NCBI RefSeq assembly: GCF_947490415.1
Contig: NZ_CANLGX010000004.1
Coordinates: 62,001 to 126,000 of the forward strand
DNA from: an uncultured Eudoraea sp.
Lineage (GTDB): Bacteria; Bacteroidota; Bacteroidia; Flavobacteriales; Flavobacteriaceae
Reading direction: 5' to 3'
Length of the DNA stretch: 64,000 nt
The translations under genes were made by a program, and so were the position numbers. This document shows, piece after piece, positions 48,945-57,708 of the stretch. Under the pieces are notes generated by a model. The model saw only the letters and a list, made by a program, of their open reading frames with translations. It had not been told where the DNA came from and did no database searches. How positions within the stretch are numbered: position 1 is the stretch's first letter; the number at the start of each line of letters is the position of its first letter.

Positions 48945-50759
48945 TTGGAACCTTTTATTGTATCGGCCCGTAAGTACAGACCCAAAACCTTCAAGGATGT
49001 TGTGGGCCAGGAAGCCATTACAAATACTTTGCTGAATGCAATAGATAATAACCATCTGGCTCAAGCGCTTTTATTCTGTGGCCCCAGAGGAGTAGGAAAG
49101 ACTACATGCGCACGGATTTTGGCCAAACAGATTAACCAGGACGGTACAGAAAAAGAAGATGAAGATTTTGCATTCAATATTTTTGAACTGGATGCGGCAT
49201 CGAATAATTCTGTTGATGATATCAGGAGCTTGATAGACCAGGTGCGAATACCACCTCAGGTTGGAAAATACAAAGTATATATCATTGATGAGGTACATAT
49301 GCTGTCTCAATCCGCGTTTAATGCATTTTTAAAAACACTGGAAGAACCACCTAAACATGCTATTTTTATTTTAGCTACTACAGAAAAACACAAGATTATA
49401 CCCACCATATTATCGCGTTGCCAGATCTTTGACTTTAAACGTATAACCGTTAAGGATGCCGCTGAGTATCTCAAATATATTGCCGAGCAACAAGGTATTG
49501 AAGCAGAGGATGATGCACTTCACATTATAGCCCAGAAGGCAGATGGCGCTATGAGAGATGCATTATCTATTTTTGACCGGGTAGTTAGTTTCTCCGGAAA
49601 AAATCTTACCAGAGCGGCTGTAACTGAGAATTTAAATGTTCTGGATTACGATACATATTTTGCCACTACAGATTTAATTCTGGAGCATAACATCCCTCAA
49701 TTATTAGTTTTGTACAATCAAACGCTCGCTAAAGGCTTTGAGGGACATCATTTTATTAGCGGTCTGGCTTCACATTTCAGAGACCTTTTGGTTTGCAGGC
49801 ATAAAGACACTATCGCCCTTTTGGAAGTTGGAGAAAAGGCTAAAAAAAAGTATCTGGAGCAATCTAAAAAAACTTCTGAATCCTTTTTATTAAGAGGGAT
49901 AACTATTGCAAATGAATGTGACCTTAACTACAAAGCCAGTAAAAACCATAGATTATTGGTTGAGTTAACCTTAATGAAATTAGCCTCCATAGATTTTAAT
50001 GGTGAAAAAAAAAATCTTGAAAACCTCAGTTCCACCTGGAATGGTGAAATTCAATTAATACCGACTTCGTTTTTTATTGATACTATACCCGCTAACCAGG
50101 CTCCGGAACCTCTGGAATCGGGGAATATGTTGGAGGAAATCAAAACAGTCATACCTAAAGAGAAGGAAGTCGAAGTCCGGGAACAGGCGGAATTTCCCGA
50201 AACGGAAAAAATTGAAAAACAGCCACTTACATCCATTATGTCGGAAGAAGTATTGGTATCAGATCCTAACAAAAACATTAGGATTAAGGAGCGATCCAAA
50301 AGAATTTCGGGATTGTCAATATCCAGTTTAAAGGCGAAAAAAGAACATCAGCTTAAAAGGATAGAGGTCGTAATTGATGAGGATGAACTGCCTAAAGAAA
50401 GTTTTGAAAAAGAAGAATTATTAAAACATTGGGGAAATTATATTCAAAAATTAGACGAAGCAGGTAAAAAGATTATGGCTTCTAATCTACGTTCCGACCA
50501 ACCTAAAATAGTTGATGAATCGCAAATATGGATTGAGCTGCCCAATGGTACAATGAAAAAAGAAATTGAAAGGGAACAATATCAACTTTTGAAATTTCTA
50601 AGAAAGCAGCTTAACAATTATAGTATTGAGTTGAAAATAACCGTCAATGACGAAATTGCCAAAAAATTTGCCTATACACCTGAAGAGAAGTATCAAAAAC
50701 TAAGGGAAATAAACCCTGCGATTGATCTCCTAAGAAAGGAGTTTGATTTAGACCTTTGA
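48945..50759 (+). CDS. dnaX: DNA polymerase III subunit gamma/tau
   Basis: The clamp-loader ATPase of 604 residues. It starts with TTG at 48945, giving MEPFIVSARKYRPKTF, the family N-terminus. Walker A is GPRGVGKTT (46-54), Walker B VYIIDEVHM, and the SRC sensor is in TILSRCQIF. The zinc-binding cysteine module present in E. coli between Walker A and B is absent: the segment here reads AKQINQDGTEKEDEDFAF. The part after about 370 is the variable tau-like extension. The last codons overlap by 12 bp with the end of a convergent gene. No programmed frameshift signal was identified. Confidence 0.95.
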   Translation: MEPFIVSARKYRPKTFKDVVGQEAITNTLLNAIDNNHLAQALLFCGPRGVGKTTCARILAKQINQDGTEKEDEDFAFNIFELDAASNNSVDDIRSLIDQVRIPPQVGKYKVYIIDEVHMLSQSAFNAFLKTLEEPPKHAIFILATTEKHKIIPTILSRCQIFDFKRITVKDAAEYLKYIAEQQGIEAEDDALHIIAQKADGAMRDALSIFDRVVSFSGKNLTRAAVTENLNVLDYDTYFATTDLILEHNIPQLLVLYNQTLAKGFEGHHFISGLASHFRDLLVCRHKDTIALLEVGEKAKKKYLEQSKKTSESFLLRGITIANECDLNYKASKNHRLLVELTLMKLASIDFNGEKKNLENLSSTWNGEIQLIPTSFFIDTIPANQAPEPLESGNMLEEIKTVIPKEKEVEVREQAEFPETEKIEKQPLTSIMSEEVLVSDPNKNIRIKERSKRISGLSISSLKAKKEHQLKRIEVVIDEDELPKESFEKEELLKHWGNYIQKLDEAGKKIMASNLRSDQPKIVDESQIWIELPNGTMKKEIEREQYQLLKFLRKQLNNYSIELKITVNDEIAKKFAYTPEEKYQKLREINPAIDLLRKEFDLDL

Positions 50760-51107
50760 TTTATTTACCAATCCTAACCTAAGGGCATAAATCAGCATTA
50801 CTATTGCTACAATAAGCAGCCCTAAAGACTCTCTTCCCCTTTCAATATTGACAATATCTCCATTACCAATAGTTACGCCTTCAAACTTATCTGGCCACAA
50901 AACAAAAGTGCCGATAAAATATATTCCACTTAGAATAAGTGCCACGGTAAAGTTTAATTTACCCAGATAGAAGAACAAAGAAGCTGTAGCAGCAACTCCA
51001 TAGATGGCATACCATAACAAAGCGTCTGGATCATTGTATTGCACATAAGCGGCCCATATGAATAACAATATAAATATTAAGGAAAGATATTTAAACAGGT
51101 TTTTCAT
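50748..51107 (-). CDS. TMEM220-family membrane protein, last gene of the ebo run
   Basis: A 119-residue protein with four hydrophobic segments and the family-like QYNDPDALLWYAIYG after the first helix, as in the TMEM220 family shared by bacteria and animals. Its function is not known. It begins 11 bp after the eboF stop on the same strand, and the next gene beyond is convergent, so it is probably the final gene of the ebo operon. Whether it takes part in ebo function or is only co-transcribed needs comparison across genomes. Confidence 0.82.
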   Translation of the reverse strand: MKNLFKYLSLIFILLFIWAAYVQYNDPDALLWYAIYGVAATASLFFYLGKLNFTVALILSGIYFIGTFVLWPDKFEGVTIGNGDIVNIERGRESLGLLIVAIVMLIYALRLGLVNKSKV

Positions 51108-51118
51108 AATGTAAGATT

Positions 51119-52492
51119 TTAACCGGTTAACTGTTTAGTTATAAGCTGATACACCTCTGTGGATTTAAAAAGTTGCTGTTTTAATGATCCTTTATTATTT
51201 GTTATAAAAACCGGATAATCTGATTGATCTTCAGGTATTCTGCCATGGGAACCCTTTACCAAATTTGCTTTTAGGGGAATTATATTCATTACAGTTCTAA
51301 ATCCGAGTTTCTTTTTTATAAGTTTCAATATCACCTTGAGCATCACAAATTTATCATCCGGATCTGTGAACATTTCTACCGGGTCATAACCAGGCTTTTT
51401 GTGGATATCCACCATATTTGCGTAGTCCGGAGCTTTTGAATCATCCATCCAGAAATAATAAGTAAACCATGAATCTTTATCAGCTATCAACAGCAAATCG
51501 CCACACCTGCTGTGATTTAAATGTGCCTCTTGCAATTCATTATGCGATAACACCCTGTCAATACCTTCAATTCCTTTTAATAACTCCTTTACTTTGCTTT
51601 CAATTGTTGGGTCATTAAGATAAATGTGCGCTATCTGATGATCAGCCACTCCAAAAGCTTTACTGGCGCCTGCATCTAAAAGCTCCAGGCCTCTTTCTTC
51701 CCTGATACTTATTAATCCCTCAGATCGAAGAATACGGTTAATGTGAATTGGTTTGCTTACATCGGTTATACCGTATTCCGAGAGTAGAACGATATTTGTA
51801 TTTTCCTTGTCATAATGACTTACCAGTTTTTTCACAACCTCATCAATTTCATTGAGATCTTTACTGATTTTGGAAAAGTCAATACCATATCTCTGCAAAT
51901 TATAATCCAAATGAGGCAGATAAACTAAAGTAAGTGTAGGATCATGCAATTGGTCTATTCTGATTGCAGCGTCAGCAATCCACTGACTCGACTTCACTGA
52001 TGTTTTGGGACCCCAAAAATTAAATAAAGGGAAAGTCCCTAGTTCTTTTTGTAATTGGTCTCTTAATTCAGGTGGATGTGAATAGACATCAGGGATTTTT
52101 CTGCCATCGGCAAGATAGTTAGGACGAGGCGTAACACTGTAATCCACTGTAGAATACATATTATACCACCAGAAAAGATTAGCACAGGTAAAATTGCTGT
52201 CCAATTGCTTCATCTCATCCCACAACTTGTCACTTTGAGTCAATTTATTGGATTGTCTCCAAAATTTTACTTCACATTCATCCTTAAAATACCATCCGTT
52301 TCCAACAATACCATGTTCTGAAGGCCATTTACCGGTAAGATAAGTTGTTTGAGCAGTGCAGGTGACCGCAGGCAAAACCGGTTCAATTGAGGCTAACTCG
52401 CCTTTTTCCAGAAATGACTTGATAAAAGGCGTATGTTCACCAATTAGTCTATTGGTAAGACCAACAACATTAAGAACGACCGTTTTATTCAT
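51119..52492 (-). CDS. eboF: EboF, alkaline-phosphatase-superfamily protein
   Basis: The 457-residue protein has the fold signature of nucleotide pyrophosphatase/phosphodiesterases: PAVTCTAQTTYLTGKWPSEHG (41-61), with Thr44 at the nucleophile position. Several metal ligands appear changed by my alignment. The first ligand Asp of VxxxDG is Val10 (NVVGL), the DxxxH pair keeps Asp196 but has Gln200, and SDHG reads SEYG (238-241). A His at 285 remains. These changes may be typical of the EboF family, so activity may differ from classical members. No signal peptide is visible. It starts 5 bp after eboE, inside the ebo operon. Confidence 0.85.
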   Translation of the reverse strand: MNKTVVLNVVGLTNRLIGEHTPFIKSFLEKGELASIEPVLPAVTCTAQTTYLTGKWPSEHGIVGNGWYFKDECEVKFWRQSNKLTQSDKLWDEMKQLDSNFTCANLFWWYNMYSTVDYSVTPRPNYLADGRKIPDVYSHPPELRDQLQKELGTFPLFNFWGPKTSVKSSQWIADAAIRIDQLHDPTLTLVYLPHLDYNLQRYGIDFSKISKDLNEIDEVVKKLVSHYDKENTNIVLLSEYGITDVSKPIHINRILRSEGLISIREERGLELLDAGASKAFGVADHQIAHIYLNDPTIESKVKELLKGIEGIDRVLSHNELQEAHLNHSRCGDLLLIADKDSWFTYYFWMDDSKAPDYANMVDIHKKPGYDPVEMFTDPDDKFVMLKVILKLIKKKLGFRTVMNIIPLKANLVKGSHGRIPEDQSDYPVFITNNKGSLKQQLFKSTEVYQLITKQLTG

Positions 52493-52497
52493 GCCTT

Positions 52498-53691
52498 TTA
52501 TAGTTTATCTATTAACCAGTTCATTTCCCTGATTATCGATTCTGAAAGTTCTTTTTTAAGAGAATTTGGAAGTACATCCCAGGTATAAGTCTCAATTTCC
52601 AGGTGTTCTGAAATCAAATTATCTCTGAGAATAGCTATCACCTTCAATATATGATCTTGTGTGGAATATAATTCCTCAAAAGATTCTAGAAAAATGGGAA
52701 CATGAAAATGTGCTCTTAATTCTGAAACATTAGTTTTATTTTTTAGAACAACGGGCAAGTCATTATAAGTCTTAACCCCCTCGCTAGTATTTTCAGTAAC
52801 CTGGTGCAGGTAGGTAGGCTCATCAAATTGCGCCAATGATTCCCATATTTTATCTCTATCGGATGTATCAAATTTAATTTTCAAAGCTGCGCTAACCTGT
52901 ATTTTTCCAATCTTAATTCCAGCATTCTTTAATTTTTCGAAAGTATAGGCGGGCTCTTCATAGGCAAGTGAAAAATGACATATATCATAGCAAAGGGTAC
53001 AATAGCGCAAAACCAAATCTTTCGCCCTTTCTTCGCTCACATCAAGGGTTTTTATTAGTTCCTTTTTCGCAATTGGTAAAAGAAAATTACGGTAGAACGT
53101 TAAAACATCTTCAGTATTCTCAAGCATCCCATCCGGCTCCGGTTCTATATCAAGATGAAGATACTTGGCGGTTCTTTCTTCAAGTTCATGGAGTTTTAAC
53201 ACAAGCTCGGTCAAATGAGTTGCTCCCTTTTCCATGACTGTCTTTTTACTATCCTTGCTACTGTGCCAGTGTTTGTAGCTAATTGGTGATGTGGAAATAC
53301 CCCCAGAAATACCTTCGGGCAAGAGATAAGCCAACTGATCAAATAGTCTTATAGTATAATTGACTCTATCCCTTGTTGTCCAATCGGGTTCATGGACTTT
53401 AGCCTTTACAACTTCATCATGAAAATTTCCATATGGAAAACCATTCATGGTAAATACATAAAGACCGTTTTTAATTAACCAACTTTTAAATTTTGGGAGA
53501 TTATCATTCATAGCAAGCTCTTCACTTGCCTTATTGGATAGTCGCAATCCTATACCAAATAGTTGCCCTTTTGATATTTTATTCTTTATAACCGGCAGGT
53601 ATTCAACTAAACTCTCAAAAGTACTTTCCCAATCCTGTCCCGGATGAATATTAGTGCAATAAGTCAGATGGTATTTATCATCGATCAGCAT
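52498..53691 (-). CDS. eboE: EboE, TIM-barrel metabolite-traffic protein
   Basis: The protein of 397 residues resembles sugar-phosphate isomerase/xylose-isomerase-like TIM barrels and matches the EboE family. Likely metal-site residues are Glu183 (HLDIEPEPD), Asp236 and His239 (CYDICHFS), Gln265 (KIQVSAAL) and His328/His330 (RAHFHVP). The reaction is not known; the family name, metabolite traffic protein, comes from its cluster in cyanobacteria. It lies 3 bp after eboD and 5 bp before eboF. Confidence 0.87.
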   Translation of the reverse strand: MLIDDKYHLTYCTNIHPGQDWESTFESLVEYLPVIKNKISKGQLFGIGLRLSNKASEELAMNDNLPKFKSWLIKNGLYVFTMNGFPYGNFHDEVVKAKVHEPDWTTRDRVNYTIRLFDQLAYLLPEGISGGISTSPISYKHWHSSKDSKKTVMEKGATHLTELVLKLHELEERTAKYLHLDIEPEPDGMLENTEDVLTFYRNFLLPIAKKELIKTLDVSEERAKDLVLRYCTLCYDICHFSLAYEEPAYTFEKLKNAGIKIGKIQVSAALKIKFDTSDRDKIWESLAQFDEPTYLHQVTENTSEGVKTYNDLPVVLKNKTNVSELRAHFHVPIFLESFEELYSTQDHILKVIAILRDNLISEHLEIETYTWDVLPNSLKKELSESIIREMNWLIDKL

Positions 53692-53694
53692 AGT

Positions 53695-54861
53695 TTATGC
53701 CATATTAATTTTACATTTATTATTAAGGGAATTTACTGCATTCTTCATTAATTCTATGTCTATTTTGTGCACATCTACCTTCTGCCCAATACCGTTTATT
53801 AATGTAATTGTCAATTCACCTCCAAGATGCTCACGAAACTCCTGAATCCCTTTTAATAATTCCTGCATTTCTTCATCTCCTGAAACCGGAATAGACAAAT
53901 CAAAGCCAATGTCTGCCATGACCTTTAAAATTTCATCCAAAATTTCTGCTGAAATAAAACCAATAAGCTTAGAATATACTAAATCCAGAGCAATCCCCTT
54001 AGCCACAGCTTCACCATGTCTCAAAGAATAATTGCTCATCTGTTCTAACTTATGCGCGGACCAATGACCAAAATCTAAGGGTCTGGAAGATCCGCTTTCG
54101 AAAGGGTCGCCACCTTTGGCAATATGTTCCATATGCATTTCGGCGCACCTGTAAATAGTTTTGAGCATGGCATCCATATCACGTTCTTTCAATTTGATCG
54201 CATTTTCTTTAATTGTTTTAAAGAAAAATTCATCTTTAATAAGAGCAACCTTAATAGCCTCAGCTACTCCTGCAATCCAATCGCGTTGCTCAAGACTTGT
54301 CAAAAAATCACTATCGTTTATTATTGCATATGGTGGCGCAAAAGTTCCTATAAAATTCTTTTTGTTATAAGCATTTATGCCATTCTTTACCCCTATTGCG
54401 GCATCGTTCTGGGAAAGGACAGTAGTTGGGATACGAATGAGCTTTACACCCCTGTGAGCAACCGACGCAGCATAACCTGCCATATCAATTACCGCACCAC
54501 CTCCAATGACTATCACAAAGGAATGCCTGCAAATACCATTATTATTGATCGCGCCTATTATTCTATCAACATTGTTGTAATTGTTTTTGGATATCTCTCC
54601 ACCTTCAATTACCAGACACTCGGTAAATAGCAGTTGAGAGCTATGCAGCAGACAATAATTTCTAATACGCTCAATTAGCTTAGGGTGCTTTTTAAGAACG
54701 CCATTATCCGCAACGAAAAGGAGTTTTACCTGTTCATTTGGCTTGTATGACTCTATAACCTCCTTGAACAATTTATTATTGCTTTCAAATAAGCCACTTG
54801 TGAAGTGTAAACTATATTTAAAATTTACGGCAAAAGATTGTTCTATAGGCTTTAATTGCAT
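53695..54861 (-). CDS. eboD: EboD, 3-dehydroquinate synthase-like sugar phosphate cyclase
   Basis: A sugar phosphate cyclase of 388 residues. NAD-binding is by GGGAVIDMAGYAA (120-132), and zinc ligands probably include Glu201 (AEAIK), a His in DFGHWSAHKLE and a His in LRHGEAVAKG. The RGVKLIRIPTTVLSQNDAAIG stretch is typical of the wider family. It is longer at the N-terminus than ordinary AroB and lies within the ebo operon, so it is more likely the ebo-specific cyclase than the shikimate enzyme. The substrate is unknown; sedoheptulose- or hexose-phosphate-derived cyclitols are the usual products in this family. Confidence 0.88.
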   Translation of the reverse strand: MQLKPIEQSFAVNFKYSLHFTSGLFESNNKLFKEVIESYKPNEQVKLLFVADNGVLKKHPKLIERIRNYCLLHSSQLLFTECLVIEGGEISKNNYNNVDRIIGAINNNGICRHSFVIVIGGGAVIDMAGYAASVAHRGVKLIRIPTTVLSQNDAAIGVKNGINAYNKKNFIGTFAPPYAIINDSDFLTSLEQRDWIAGVAEAIKVALIKDEFFFKTIKENAIKLKERDMDAMLKTIYRCAEMHMEHIAKGGDPFESGSSRPLDFGHWSAHKLEQMSNYSLRHGEAVAKGIALDLVYSKLIGFISAEILDEILKVMADIGFDLSIPVSGDEEMQELLKGIQEFREHLGGELTITLINGIGQKVDVHKIDIELMKNAVNSLNNKCKINMA

Positions 54862-54870
54862 TCCATAATT

Positions 54871-55773
54871 TTAAGTTACGGCAAATATTTTAGCTAATAT
54901 GTACGAAAGTGGCAACAATAGTAAAACAATCAATCCAAACTGCCAACTATCAAAGGCTACAGTGAGCGAGGCATCCAAAACAATTATTGAAAGTACACCG
55001 CTAACCACTGCTTTTTTTATATTTTCCGGTGAATTTATTCTATATGCCCTAATTAATGAACTATAAATCAGAAATATAAATAAACCAAGGAAAGGAATTA
55101 AACCAAGCAACTTTTCCTGTTTATCCGGTAAAATCATCAAAACGCTAAAAATTACCACAGCATATAATAGCCCTGCCCAAATTATGTGCTTTTTGTTTTC
55201 CCCATAAACCTCTCCCCTGCTTATTAATGTAATGGCAAAAATATATAAAAGAGGAATTACGGCATACATCCAGTGAGATATTTCACCAAATACAGACATC
55301 CCTAAAATAAGGTTCAATGCTCTGCAAAGCCCCATATTTAAAGGCCCCAGAAATTGAAATTTTTTGGAAAATGTATCATAAAGTATGATTGCTAAAGCAA
55401 GAATTAAAGCTATGATACCACTAAGGTAATTCACAAAAAAGGATAAAATAATTCCTGATATCAATAAGCCGGTTCCAAATAATGAAGCTCCTTTTAGAGA
55501 TACATCTCCTTTTGGAATAGGTCTTTCAGGTCGTTCTATCTGGTCAATTTTAAAATCAAATACATCATTTAGTACAACTCCTCCGGCGTAAAGGAACGTT
55601 GAGGAAATTAGGAGAAGTAATAAATTCAGAGATACAGCTCCACCTAAAAAAGTGTCAGATGCAATTAGCACGGTTAAACCGGATATGCTGGAACCGGCCA
55701 TTATATCTGCCATGGCAGTGGGTAAGTTTGCAGGCCTGGCAAGCTTTGAATAACCCAGAAGTACCACGTTCAT
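54871..55773 (-). CDS. eboC: EboC, UbiA-like prenyltransferase
   Basis: A 300-residue integral membrane protein with about eight or nine hydrophobic segments. The first aspartate-rich motif NDVFDFKID (Asn69, Asp70, Asp73, Asp77) followed by ERPERPIPKG is diagnostic for UbiA-type prenyltransferases, which join isoprenoid diphosphates to an aromatic or other acceptor at the membrane. The second motif is only loosely preserved (ILYDTFSKKF). It begins 1 bp after the eboB stop. As the only membrane enzyme among eboA-F it is the natural place for a lipid anchoring or membrane step in the pathway. Confidence 0.9.
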   Translation of the reverse strand: MNVVLLGYSKLARPANLPTAMADIMAGSSISGLTVLIASDTFLGGAVSLNLLLLLISSTFLYAGGVVLNDVFDFKIDQIERPERPIPKGDVSLKGASLFGTGLLISGIILSFFVNYLSGIIALILALAIILYDTFSKKFQFLGPLNMGLCRALNLILGMSVFGEISHWMYAVIPLLYIFAITLISRGEVYGENKKHIIWAGLLYAVVIFSVLMILPDKQEKLLGLIPFLGLFIFLIYSSLIRAYRINSPENIKKAVVSGVLSIIVLDASLTVAFDSWQFGLIVLLLLPLSYILAKIFAVT

Positions 55774-55774
55774 T

Positions 55775-56683
55775 CTACTTTATTTGATCTGTGTCTCTAC
55801 GAGGTTCCTGACCTCTTAAAACGCTATTATCATTGAAAAGAATTGATTGATTAATTCCTTGCGGATTTAACCAGTCTGATTCTTTCATTTTGCCATTTTT
55901 ACTAAAAGCATCCAGGGCATTCTGATAACAGGTTTTTATGACATCCTCACGCTCTATACCGCGCTTTAACATAAGGGCTGCCGTTTTTGGCACTGCCAAT
56001 GGGTCACTAACCCCCCAGTCTGCCGAACTATCTACTATGATTTTAGAGCTGCCATATTTACGCACTACTTCTACCATGCGTTCATTGCCCATTTTAGTTT
56101 TGGGATAAATGGTAAAAGCGGCAATAAAACCTCTATCTAAAACTTCTTTTACTGTTTCCTCATTATTGTGATCAATTATGACATTGCCAGGATCCAGTTT
56201 ATGCTCCATGCACACTTCCATGCTCCTGATTGTTCCAGCCTTTTTATCTCTATGAGGGGTATGCACCTGTACAGTCATATTTAGTTCTTTAGCCAGCTCT
56301 AATTGTTCCCTAAAATACTTATCCTCAGCCGGCGTTTGATCATCATAGCCTATTTCGCCTATAGCTACAACATTTTCCTTGTGAAGATATAAGGGTAAAA
56401 GTTCCATAACCTGCTCTGCCAGGGCCTCATTATTGGCTTCTTTGGAATTCAAGCCAATGGTGCAGTAGTGTTTTATTCCAAACTGACTGGCCCTAAATGG
56501 TTCCCAACCAACAAGGCTACTAAAATAATCCTGGAATGATCCAACCTGGGTTCGCGGCTGACCTAACCAAAACGAGGGCTCAATAATTGCAACAATTCCA
56601 GCCTCCGCCATAGCTTCATAGTCATCGGTTGTCCTCGAGGTCATATGAATGTGAGGGTCAATTATCATCATTTTTTCTTTCAT
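55775..56683 (-). CDS. eboB: EboB, TatD-like metal-dependent hydrolase
   Basis: The 302-residue amidohydrolase-fold protein has HxH as His11 and His13 (IIDPHIHM), a Glu in GEIGYDDQ (about 110), His in VQVHTPHRDK, His in VIIDHNNEE and Asp in VDSSADWGVSD, the full TatD-type metal set. It overlaps the eboA stop by 4 bp (ATGA). Classical TatD proteins are nucleases, but the substrate for the ebo member is unknown. Confidence 0.9.
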   Translation of the reverse strand: MKEKMMIIDPHIHMTSRTTDDYEAMAEAGIVAIIEPSFWLGQPRTQVGSFQDYFSSLVGWEPFRASQFGIKHYCTIGLNSKEANNEALAEQVMELLPLYLHKENVVAIGEIGYDDQTPAEDKYFREQLELAKELNMTVQVHTPHRDKKAGTIRSMEVCMEHKLDPGNVIIDHNNEETVKEVLDRGFIAAFTIYPKTKMGNERMVEVVRKYGSSKIIVDSSADWGVSDPLAVPKTAALMLKRGIEREDVIKTCYQNALDAFSKNGKMKESDWLNPQGINQSILFNDNSVLRGQEPRRDTDQIK

Positions 56684-57543
56684 AGCTTATTTTTTAAATT
56701 TTCCCAGGTGACGGCCTTATTCGCAACTTTTTCCTTTAAATTGGGATACTTATCCAATAGTCTGATTGCTTCCGGTTGATTGGAGTAATAACAACAAAGT
56801 GCAGCCGCCAGATTTTCAATTTTATCTTTACTCCTAAACAAATGATCCATATCCTGTAATAAAACACCTTCCAAAAATCCTGTTACAGGTCGCCAGAACA
56901 ATGGATCTATATCCCTTGAAGCCGCCCATCGCTCATGGGCATAATCTGAAATAATTCTCACTAAATCTCTGTTCGCCCGCTTTTCAACATCAACAATCTC
57001 TCCCAAATTGCGCTCCATAAAAGCCGCTTTCAAATACATTTGATTCCATTGCTGATCATTAAAATATATAGAAGGATAAGGATTGTTTAATGCTATAGCG
57101 TCAAAAATTATCCCAATATTAGTTCGCAATGCTTCAACGCCTACGTGATTATAGTCCCCGGCATTAGGTAAAAGCATTAAAAACTTCAAAAAGGTTTCCA
57201 GCTCACCGGTATCAGCAACCTGAATAAGATTTGCCACCTTAGTTGAAAAATATGCTAAATCTGATTCAAGTACTTTACTAAGAAGATAAATCCTAGCAAT
57301 TTGGAGCAGGTTCGCATTCTGTGCGATCAGATATTTTTCCAATTCCTGATTTATGCCCTGGATTCTTGGTTTTTGTGCAGGATCAATTTTTCCGGCTAAT
57401 AGACTATAAGATAAATATAATTCCTTTGCAGATTTGGACTTAATAATTAAATCTAACTTATTCTCTATCCAGGTATGTGTTTCTTCAGATACACTATCAC
57501 CCAAAATTTTAGATAACTGTTTACGAGTATCCAAATGCTGCAT
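56680..57543 (-). CDS. eboA: EboA-domain protein, first gene of the ebo operon
   Basis: A 287-residue all-helical protein of the EboA family, which has no known activity. Typical stretches are LIQVADTGELETFLKFLMLL near 100 and YAHERWAASRDIDPLFWRPV near 210-230. The ATG at 57543 is preferred; a TTG at 57552 would add three residues. A -7-like TATATTTG on this strand at 57607-57600 gives a leader of about 50 nt, but no good -33 element was found. Six ebo genes follow in order with gaps of at most 10 bp, so they are one transcript divergent from miaE. Confidence 0.87.
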   Translation of the reverse strand: MQHLDTRKQLSKILGDSVSEETHTWIENKLDLIIKSKSAKELYLSYSLLAGKIDPAQKPRIQGINQELEKYLIAQNANLLQIARIYLLSKVLESDLAYFSTKVANLIQVADTGELETFLKFLMLLPNAGDYNHVGVEALRTNIGIIFDAIALNNPYPSIYFNDQQWNQMYLKAAFMERNLGEIVDVEKRANRDLVRIISDYAHERWAASRDIDPLFWRPVTGFLEGVLLQDMDHLFRSKDKIENLAAALCCYYSNQPEAIRLLDKYPNLKEKVANKAVTWENLKNKL

Positions 57544-57708
57544 ATATTCCAATTACAAAATAAACAAGGAGTTAAACAAAAGAAAAATCTTTAGCAGCAC
57601 AAATATATTAAGATAACAGCAATCCTCTTCTATTAATAAGAGAATATAGTTTTATTAAACACCATAAGTGTTTCACAGGTTCTTTTTAATTTAGCAAAAA
57701 TTTGAATT

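Follow-up and report, generated by a model that had tools for sequence, protein, structure and literature searches.

What does a gene for a small TMEM220-family membrane protein do directly behind eboF, and does it belong to the ebo system or only lie beside it? The question is raised by a stretch of 64,000 nucleotides (hereafter the window) of contig NZ_CANLGX010000004.1 from an uncultured Eudoraea sp., in which seven packed genes, the complete set eboABCDEF and then TMEM220, occupy positions 50748-57543 on the minus strand. The answer proposed here is that TMEM220 is, in Bacteroidota, probably a working partner of ebo and not a chance neighbour. For the reading as a whole, i.e., the known Bacteroidota ebo operon with TMEM220 as its seventh gene and real functional partner, acting at the periplasmic face, we estimate a probability of about 0.5. 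The operon itself is already known; the link of TMEM220 to ebo is, as far as our searches show, new: no report of this link was found among the matches listed in the open-licence literature.

The ebo operon of the window and its seventh gene

The genome that contains the window amounts to 3.89 Mb in 18 contigs. The initial annotation had proposed a complete minus-strand eboABCDEF set with TMEM220 starting 11 bp after eboF; all seven genes were found, the family profiles agree, and the spacing was confirmed.

56680-57543, minus strand: eboA, starting with ATG at 57543; all-helical protein with an EboA domain
55775-56683, minus strand: eboB, TatD-like metal-dependent hydrolase family; overlaps eboA by 4 bp
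54871-55773, minus strand: eboC, UbiA-type membrane prenyltransferase; 1 bp after eboB
53695-54861, minus strand: eboD, sugar phosphate cyclase family; 9 bp after eboC
52498-53691, minus strand: eboE, TIM-barrel protein (the family name); 3 bp after eboD
51119-52492, minus strand: eboF, phosphodiesterase superfamily with altered metal-ligand positions; 5 bp after eboE
50748-51107, minus strand: TMEM220 gene, four-helix membrane protein of 119 amino acids; 11 bp after eboF

The six genes eboA to eboF lie on one strand in the order ABCDEF, which is the arrangement that defines an ebo operon, and the window thus carries the known operon in complete form. The strongest family assignments are those of EboE (NF035939, 483.9 bits) and EboC (NF035940, 373.5 bits), both against equivalog models with a cut-off of 250, and that of the EboA domain (NF035938, 141.2 bits; cut-off 50); the narrower EboA family model NF035937 scores 153.6 bits, under its cut-off of 320. 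The names eboB, eboD and eboF were given from general families together with operon position, EboB matching PF01026 (70 bits; cut-off 27), EboD matching NF004852 (549.1 bits; cut-off 333), PF01761 (120.1 bits) and PF24621 (111 bits), and EboF matching PF01663 (220.5 bits; cut-off 23). The same genome carries a second dehydroquinate (DHQ)-synthase gene (G000:C3:474212), and on this ground EboD is taken to be distinct from the housekeeping AroB. The closest EboE proteins among the matches listed are from Eudoraea, with 90% identity in a metagenome-assembled genome (MAG) and 84% in Eudoraea adriatica. Judged by this one protein, the host is probably a member of the Flavobacteriaceae, in keeping with the flavobacterial setting assumed in the initial annotation.

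The ebo operon was named by Yurchenko et al. 2016, who described ABCDEF as ancestral in Bacteroidetes and Cyanobacteria (PMC5133447). Their operon and that of the window agree in the six genes, their order and the protein families. The window differs in the addition of TMEM220 after eboF, a word absent from the main text of that paper.

Placement and co-occurrence of TMEM220 and EboE

For named genomes, the best 80 of more than 595 stretches from an EboE profile search were used, and therefore the set leans toward close relatives. In 46 of these best 80 loci TMEM220 was identified at a distance of no more than 2.3 kb from either eboA or eboF, so that its proposed standing as an extra member extends beyond this genome. 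It follows eboF on the same strand in 39 loci, precedes eboA by 125 bp or less in 5, and follows eboF on the opposite strand in 2, one of which has TMEM220 2.2 kb off; where it adjoins eboA or eboF, the gaps are mostly below 60 bp.

Co-occurrence was counted in three evenly drawn sets, with a few genomes in common, from the class, the window's family and the Algoriphagus family (that of genome G267):

Class: EboE in 14/295 genomes; TMEM220 in 13/14 EboE-positive against 20/281 EboE-negative genomes; by genus, 10/11 against 12/145
Window's family: TMEM220 in 43/46 against 18/203 genomes; by genus, 40/43 against 17/192
Algoriphagus family: TMEM220 in 51/53 against 32/95 genomes; by genus, 29/31 against 21/53

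Two genomes with a TMEM220 below the family cut-off (G407 and G609, one per family) are omitted from the genome tables and included in the genus counts. Fisher tests of these tables ignore kinship, and we do not read their values as probabilities.

The arrangement differs between the two families. In the window's family TMEM220 lies after eboF on the same strand in 32 genomes, convergent to it in none, before eboA in 5, otherwise within 10 kb in 1, and farther off or on another contig in 5; the corresponding numbers for the Algoriphagus family are 7, 4, 1, 2 and 37. The association is also seen without linkage. Once every EboE-positive genome is set aside in which TMEM220 lies 10 kb or less from eboE, the gene is still present elsewhere in 8 of 9 of the remaining EboE-positive genomes in the class draw, in 5 of 8 in the window's family and, counting the 10 kb on the same contig, in 37 of 39 in the Algoriphagus family, compared with 32/95 among EboE-negative genomes of the latter. 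For two of the 37 (G618 and G713) TMEM220 adjoins a piece of eboF across a contig break, leaving 35/37. Likewise, whole-genome searches of named genomes with a locus devoid of TMEM220 found the gene in 30 of 33 (31/34 with L112, whose TMEM220 is already present 2.2 kb off in its locus), and in G324 and G328 of these 30 it adjoins a piece of eboF on another contig. The gene was not found in Zhouia, where EboE stands alone, in one cyanobacterium, and in a 2.7-Mb MAG with its contig ending at eboF. Since TMEM220 co-occurs with EboE even when unlinked, inheritance of the operon alone is no full explanation. The claim of operon membership thus holds in that linkage is frequent, and has to be narrowed in that the gene often lies elsewhere in the genome and also occurs without EboE.

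A tree was constructed from the fetched TMEM220 genes (221 hits; 191 distinct after merging of identical sequences; 190 used, over 126 columns), leaving off G228 and G253 (below 40 bits) and the degenerate row L029_15009. Many forks are unresolved, and ebo-linked proteins occur in both main clades. When the label 'linked' is given to the 60 rows whose gene is no more than 3 kb away from any reading frame of ebo, 16 changes of label, either gains or losses, are needed, 13 of which are forced by well-supported branches. For the forms found before eboA in L102 and L107, the fork-mates in the same supported group are ebo-free, several of them lying beside sugar-metabolism genes.

Two further loci may be recorded here. 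In L250 (6142-8484), scored as EboE-negative, a decayed ebo locus holds eboA, eboF fragments and an open TMEM220 frame. A MAG labelled Neomarinimicrobiota (L081) carries eboABCDEF plus TMEM220, with an EboE 57% identical to that of the window, by either transfer or mis-binning.

TMEM220 apart from ebo

A number of observations weigh against the partnership. The counts above leave kinship uncontrolled, and the 32 after-eboF cases of the window's family may perhaps trace to a single event. TMEM220 was detected in none of 194 genomes of a cyanobacterial draw, 8 of which have EboE; this search matched nothing in its controls, while the same family search does match in Bacteroidota. By this draw, the idea that every ebo operon has TMEM220 for its seventh gene was ruled out, and its proposed membership is retained as that of a partner in Bacteroidota and dropped for cyanobacteria. 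Within Bacteroidota, no TMEM220 was found in three genomes with all six ebo genes (G188, G520 and G715), in G550 with eboB to eboF (no eboA within 20 kb), or in Aureibacter, which has the six genes on a contig as long as plasmid pAT1. Conversely, 20/281, 18/203 and 32/95 genomes of the three draws have TMEM220 without EboE; such ebo-free genes often stand beside genes for TonB-receptor-like, TIM-barrel or Gfo/Idh proteins; and three genera (g392, g402 and g416) carry TMEM220 in all members, EboE-positive and EboE-negative alike. Finally, a Foldseek search with the AlphaFold2 (AF2) model of TMEM220 gave no match in PDB at E 0.001; with no solved structure like this model, the fold yields no mechanism.

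Nine exception genomes were also searched for a divergent TMEM220 that might have been missed: with profile A2 and an E limit of 1, six of them yielded no match above the range 12.6-16.7 bits and three yielded nothing, and none was accepted. On plasmids, tblastn for TMEM220 gave no match at E 0.001, and the gene is absent from the listed products of a Deinococcus plasmid ebo cluster. In G326 the contig stops at eboF, the expected site of TMEM220.

As TMEM220 is common without EboE, it also has a use of some kind outside ebo, and a common lifestyle remains a serious rival to partnership. By this account TMEM220 would be a general envelope protein of Bacteroidota, for instance for polyol or sugar handling beside TonB receptors, retained where the way of life also favours ebo, its association with ebo being ecological and the linkage a convenient co-regulation. 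The EboE-negative genomes speak for it by their number, by the persistence of the gene in EboE-negative members of the three genera and by its neighbours there. The neighbour survey covered 67 of the 70 EboE-negative genomes with TMEM220 (G228, G253 and G604 were outside the score or length limits): a TonB-receptor-like gene lies within 600 bp in 20/67 and a TIM-barrel relative within 6 kb in 25/67, against 5/54 and 15/54, at the same distances, for the 54 fetched, mostly unlinked TMEM220 genes of EboE-positive genomes. Herein 'TonB-receptor-like' stands for CarboxypepD_reg domains, length and reading of the sequence, and not for a TonB Pfam match, and the TIM-barrel relatives are xylose-isomerase-like. 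On the other side, the repeated separate placement of TMEM220 beside eboA or eboF exceeds what a shared lifestyle would lead one to expect, and 51/53 and 43/46 are close to obligate. We consider this explanation rather unlikely, but the best of the alternatives, and infer that partnership is the cause of the co-occurrence.

The surroundings of ebo-free TMEM220 genes show some regularity. In four ebo-free flavobacteria (L190, L193, L194 and L183) the gene comes after a run of genes for a 3-keto-disaccharide hydrolase, a formylglycine-generating enzyme (FGE)-like protein, a Gfo/Idh protein and a TIM-barrel protein, the spacing being nearly constant in the first three. In EboE-negative relatives within the Algoriphagus family (L232, L233, L228, L242 and L200) a NIPSNAP-family gene overlaps TMEM220 or lies within 20 bp of it; a NIPSNAP relative also lies within 6 kb of 12 of the 54 fetched genes of EboE-positive genomes. 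Among ebo loci themselves, the Aureibacter operon (L218, NZ_AP025306.1) is on a 615-kb plasmid and preceded by a ferritin-like gene; G583, with an ebo contig of equal length, shows no TMEM220. In L178 and L097 (G349 and Zhouia, G303) EboE is the sole ebo member over the roughly 20 kb covered.

The proteins and a possible periplasmic step

The window's TMEM220 matches PF15071 at 85.4 bits (cut-off 27), as do all 38 members of its alignment at E 0.001. The AF2 model made from these 38 sequences, with a mean predicted local distance difference test (pLDDT) of 93.8, has helices at 4-25, 29-47, 53-69 and 85-118, from which the count of four is taken; the sequence gave no match in PDB at E 1. Two conserved motifs are the NDPD and ExxRExxG loops: N25, D26 and W32 are invariant in 190/190 sequences and D28 is present in 189 of 190, whereas E89, R92, E93 and G96 are invariant in all 189 rows having a letter there. 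Lysine plus arginine average 1.7 at the N-terminus, 1.7 in loop 2 and 2.8 at the C-terminus (aspartate plus glutamate 0.1-0.2), compared with 0.1 in loop 1, where the acids average 2.1; in loop 3 the acids dominate (6.4), though basic residues are also present (2.9). Because of this charge distribution and the positive-inside rule, both conserved motifs probably face the periplasm.

Human TMEM220, which we take to belong to PF15071, shares only the family name with the protein of the window. The endogenous human protein was located in the Golgi, and its knock-down caused a defect in secretion and in the Golgi (PMC6979480).

Among the Ebo proteins, EboC is the one with relatives of known activity. 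Amiri Moghaddam et al. 2022 assayed EboC-related enzymes of Maribacter, Zobellia and Algoriphagus, including Ubi-297, the EboC of Maribacter sp. MS6; produced in E. coli membranes, the enzymes were active and farnesylated 8-hydroxyquinoline-2-carboxylic acid (8-HQA) in vitro, which the Maribacter enzyme with farnesyl diphosphate preferred among 14 acceptors tested (PMC9235831). The initial description of the flavobacterial role as undescribed is therefore too strong, even though we found no report identifying the natural ebo product. The EboC of the window is 52.3% identical to that of Maribacter flavus and 55.3% to that of Zobellia russellii (matches over 300). It keeps the Asp-rich motif of the Ubi-297 group, and its Y62 and R151 fit, at an offset of six, Tyr-56 and Arg-145 as given in the text of the Ubi-297 paper (PMC9235831). 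These two residues and N69-D70-x2-D73-x3-D77 are at least 98% identical over 77 rows.

In EboB, H11, H13, E110, H141, H172 and D222 are at least 98% identical (76 rows). EboE gave no match in a PDB sequence search at E 0.1. The AF2 model of EboA is all alpha (pLDDT 96) and gave no match in a PDB fold search at E 0.001; armadillo/HEAT-like chains rank high, yet at E 0.14 or above and with TM-scores of at most 0.37 in the rows shown. In EboF, T44 (77/77 rows) aligns with the Thr nucleophile of the family. By a weak alignment with phosphonoacetate hydrolase 1ei6 (pieces of 15 and 17 bits), V10 (77/77) faces D, E239-Y240 (76/76 letters, in the context S-E239-Y240-G) faces DH, and Q200 faces H, at positions which we take to be ligands of the two metals. 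Given V, E, Y and Q at these four positions, EboF may differ from the usual phosphodiesterases with two metals, and may use another metal arrangement or perform no hydrolysis at all.

An isoprenoid-cyclitol product was proposed by Yurchenko et al. 2016, with whom the idea of a prenylated cyclitol thus originates (PMC5133447). In Nostoc punctiforme, which has homologous ebo genes, Klicki et al. 2018 made ebo deletions, with eboD not among the genes studied, found that the monomer of scytonemin stays in the cytoplasm of these mutants, and suggested a prenylated carrier (PMC6282210). Unlike the window, the 194 genomes of the cyanobacterial draw gave no TMEM220 (Nostoc punctiforme was not queried by name). 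A full ebo cluster is also included in the EDB cluster of Pseudomonas fluorescens NZI7 (PMC6282210), which is tied to indoles repelling Caenorhabditis elegans (review PMC9655573), and Phycorickettsia represents a further ebo-bearing lineage (PMC6092422).

With TMEM220 as a functional partner, the pathway might run as follows. A sugar phosphate would be cyclised by EboD and the resulting ring tailored by EboB, EboE and perhaps EboF, with EboA holding the soluble enzymes together; at the inner membrane, EboC would prenylate an acceptor. What is then linked to lipid, or the cargo that it carries, would have to reach the periplasmic side, for which ebo is required in Nostoc. TMEM220 would sit in the inner membrane with the polar cluster N25, D26, D28, W32, E89, R92 and E93 toward the periplasm, and would flip, receive or unload the polar head or cargo at that face. 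Since the cyanobacteria of the draw are without TMEM220, it would serve a hand-off specific to Bacteroidota and not the core chemistry. Of this picture, the operon, the linkage, the co-occurrence, the conserved residues and the predicted fold are what the analysis shows; the sidedness, the partnership as cause and each chemical step are our interpretation.

As a membrane protein that accompanies ebo almost without exception in these families and keeps a polar site, TMEM220 is a concrete candidate for the step on the periplasmic side, and one that can be tested in marine flavobacteria amenable to culture. The link would also give the TMEM220 family, named after an animal protein, a bacterial pathway context, with none earlier among the matches listed in the open-licence literature. 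More speculatively, TMEM220 could represent an unrecognised class of periplasm-facing membrane proteins acting on small molecules or lipids that bear a polyol or a cyclitol, by transfer, flipping or modification, used in Bacteroidota either with ebo or, without it, alongside TonB uptake and sugar oxidation, the animal Golgi relative having a comparable lumen-side task; this generalisation we regard as a long shot.

Alternatively, TMEM220 might serve EboC as a small subunit or in its assembly and catalyse no chemical step itself, which would suit two membrane proteins encoded in one operon and a product of 119 amino acids for which the fold search matched no known enzyme or transporter. This appears improbable, as EboC relatives are active in E. 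coli membranes (PMC9235831), cyanobacteria of the draw have EboE and no TMEM220, and the conserved polar residues resemble, in our judgement, a site more than a helix-packing surface. That TMEM220 is a chance neighbour of eboF, fixed once through descent, would agree with the window's family, where 32 of the 38 genes found inside the 10-kb limit have one and the same arrangement, but was rejected as very improbable in view of the variety of arrangements, the 13 or more changes of label supported on the tree and co-occurrence in the unlinked state.

For the expression of the ebo locus, the sequence upstream of eboA was inspected and one element was noted:

57600-57607, minus strand: TATATTTG, putative promoter element lying 64 bp upstream of the start of eboA

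The element was likened to the promoter consensus TAnnTTTG; no -33 element was seen by eye near it. The window and four Eudoraea loci have TATATTTG at positions from -62 to -64, L058 has it at -113, and L055 carries TAGCTTTG at -60 before eboA. A scan for sigma-70 sites was uninformative (31 sites versus 27.5 in shuffled sequences). The sequence TTATCTTAATATATTTG is kept upstream of eboA in the window, the four Eudoraea loci and Muriicola. The mechanical open reading frame of eboA begins at TTG 57552, ahead of ATG 57543, and upstream of the gene lies a divergent MiaE-family gene. At the opposite end of the operon a dnaX-like gene, named from its translation, runs convergently, and the TMEM220 stop overlaps its 3' end by 12 bp.

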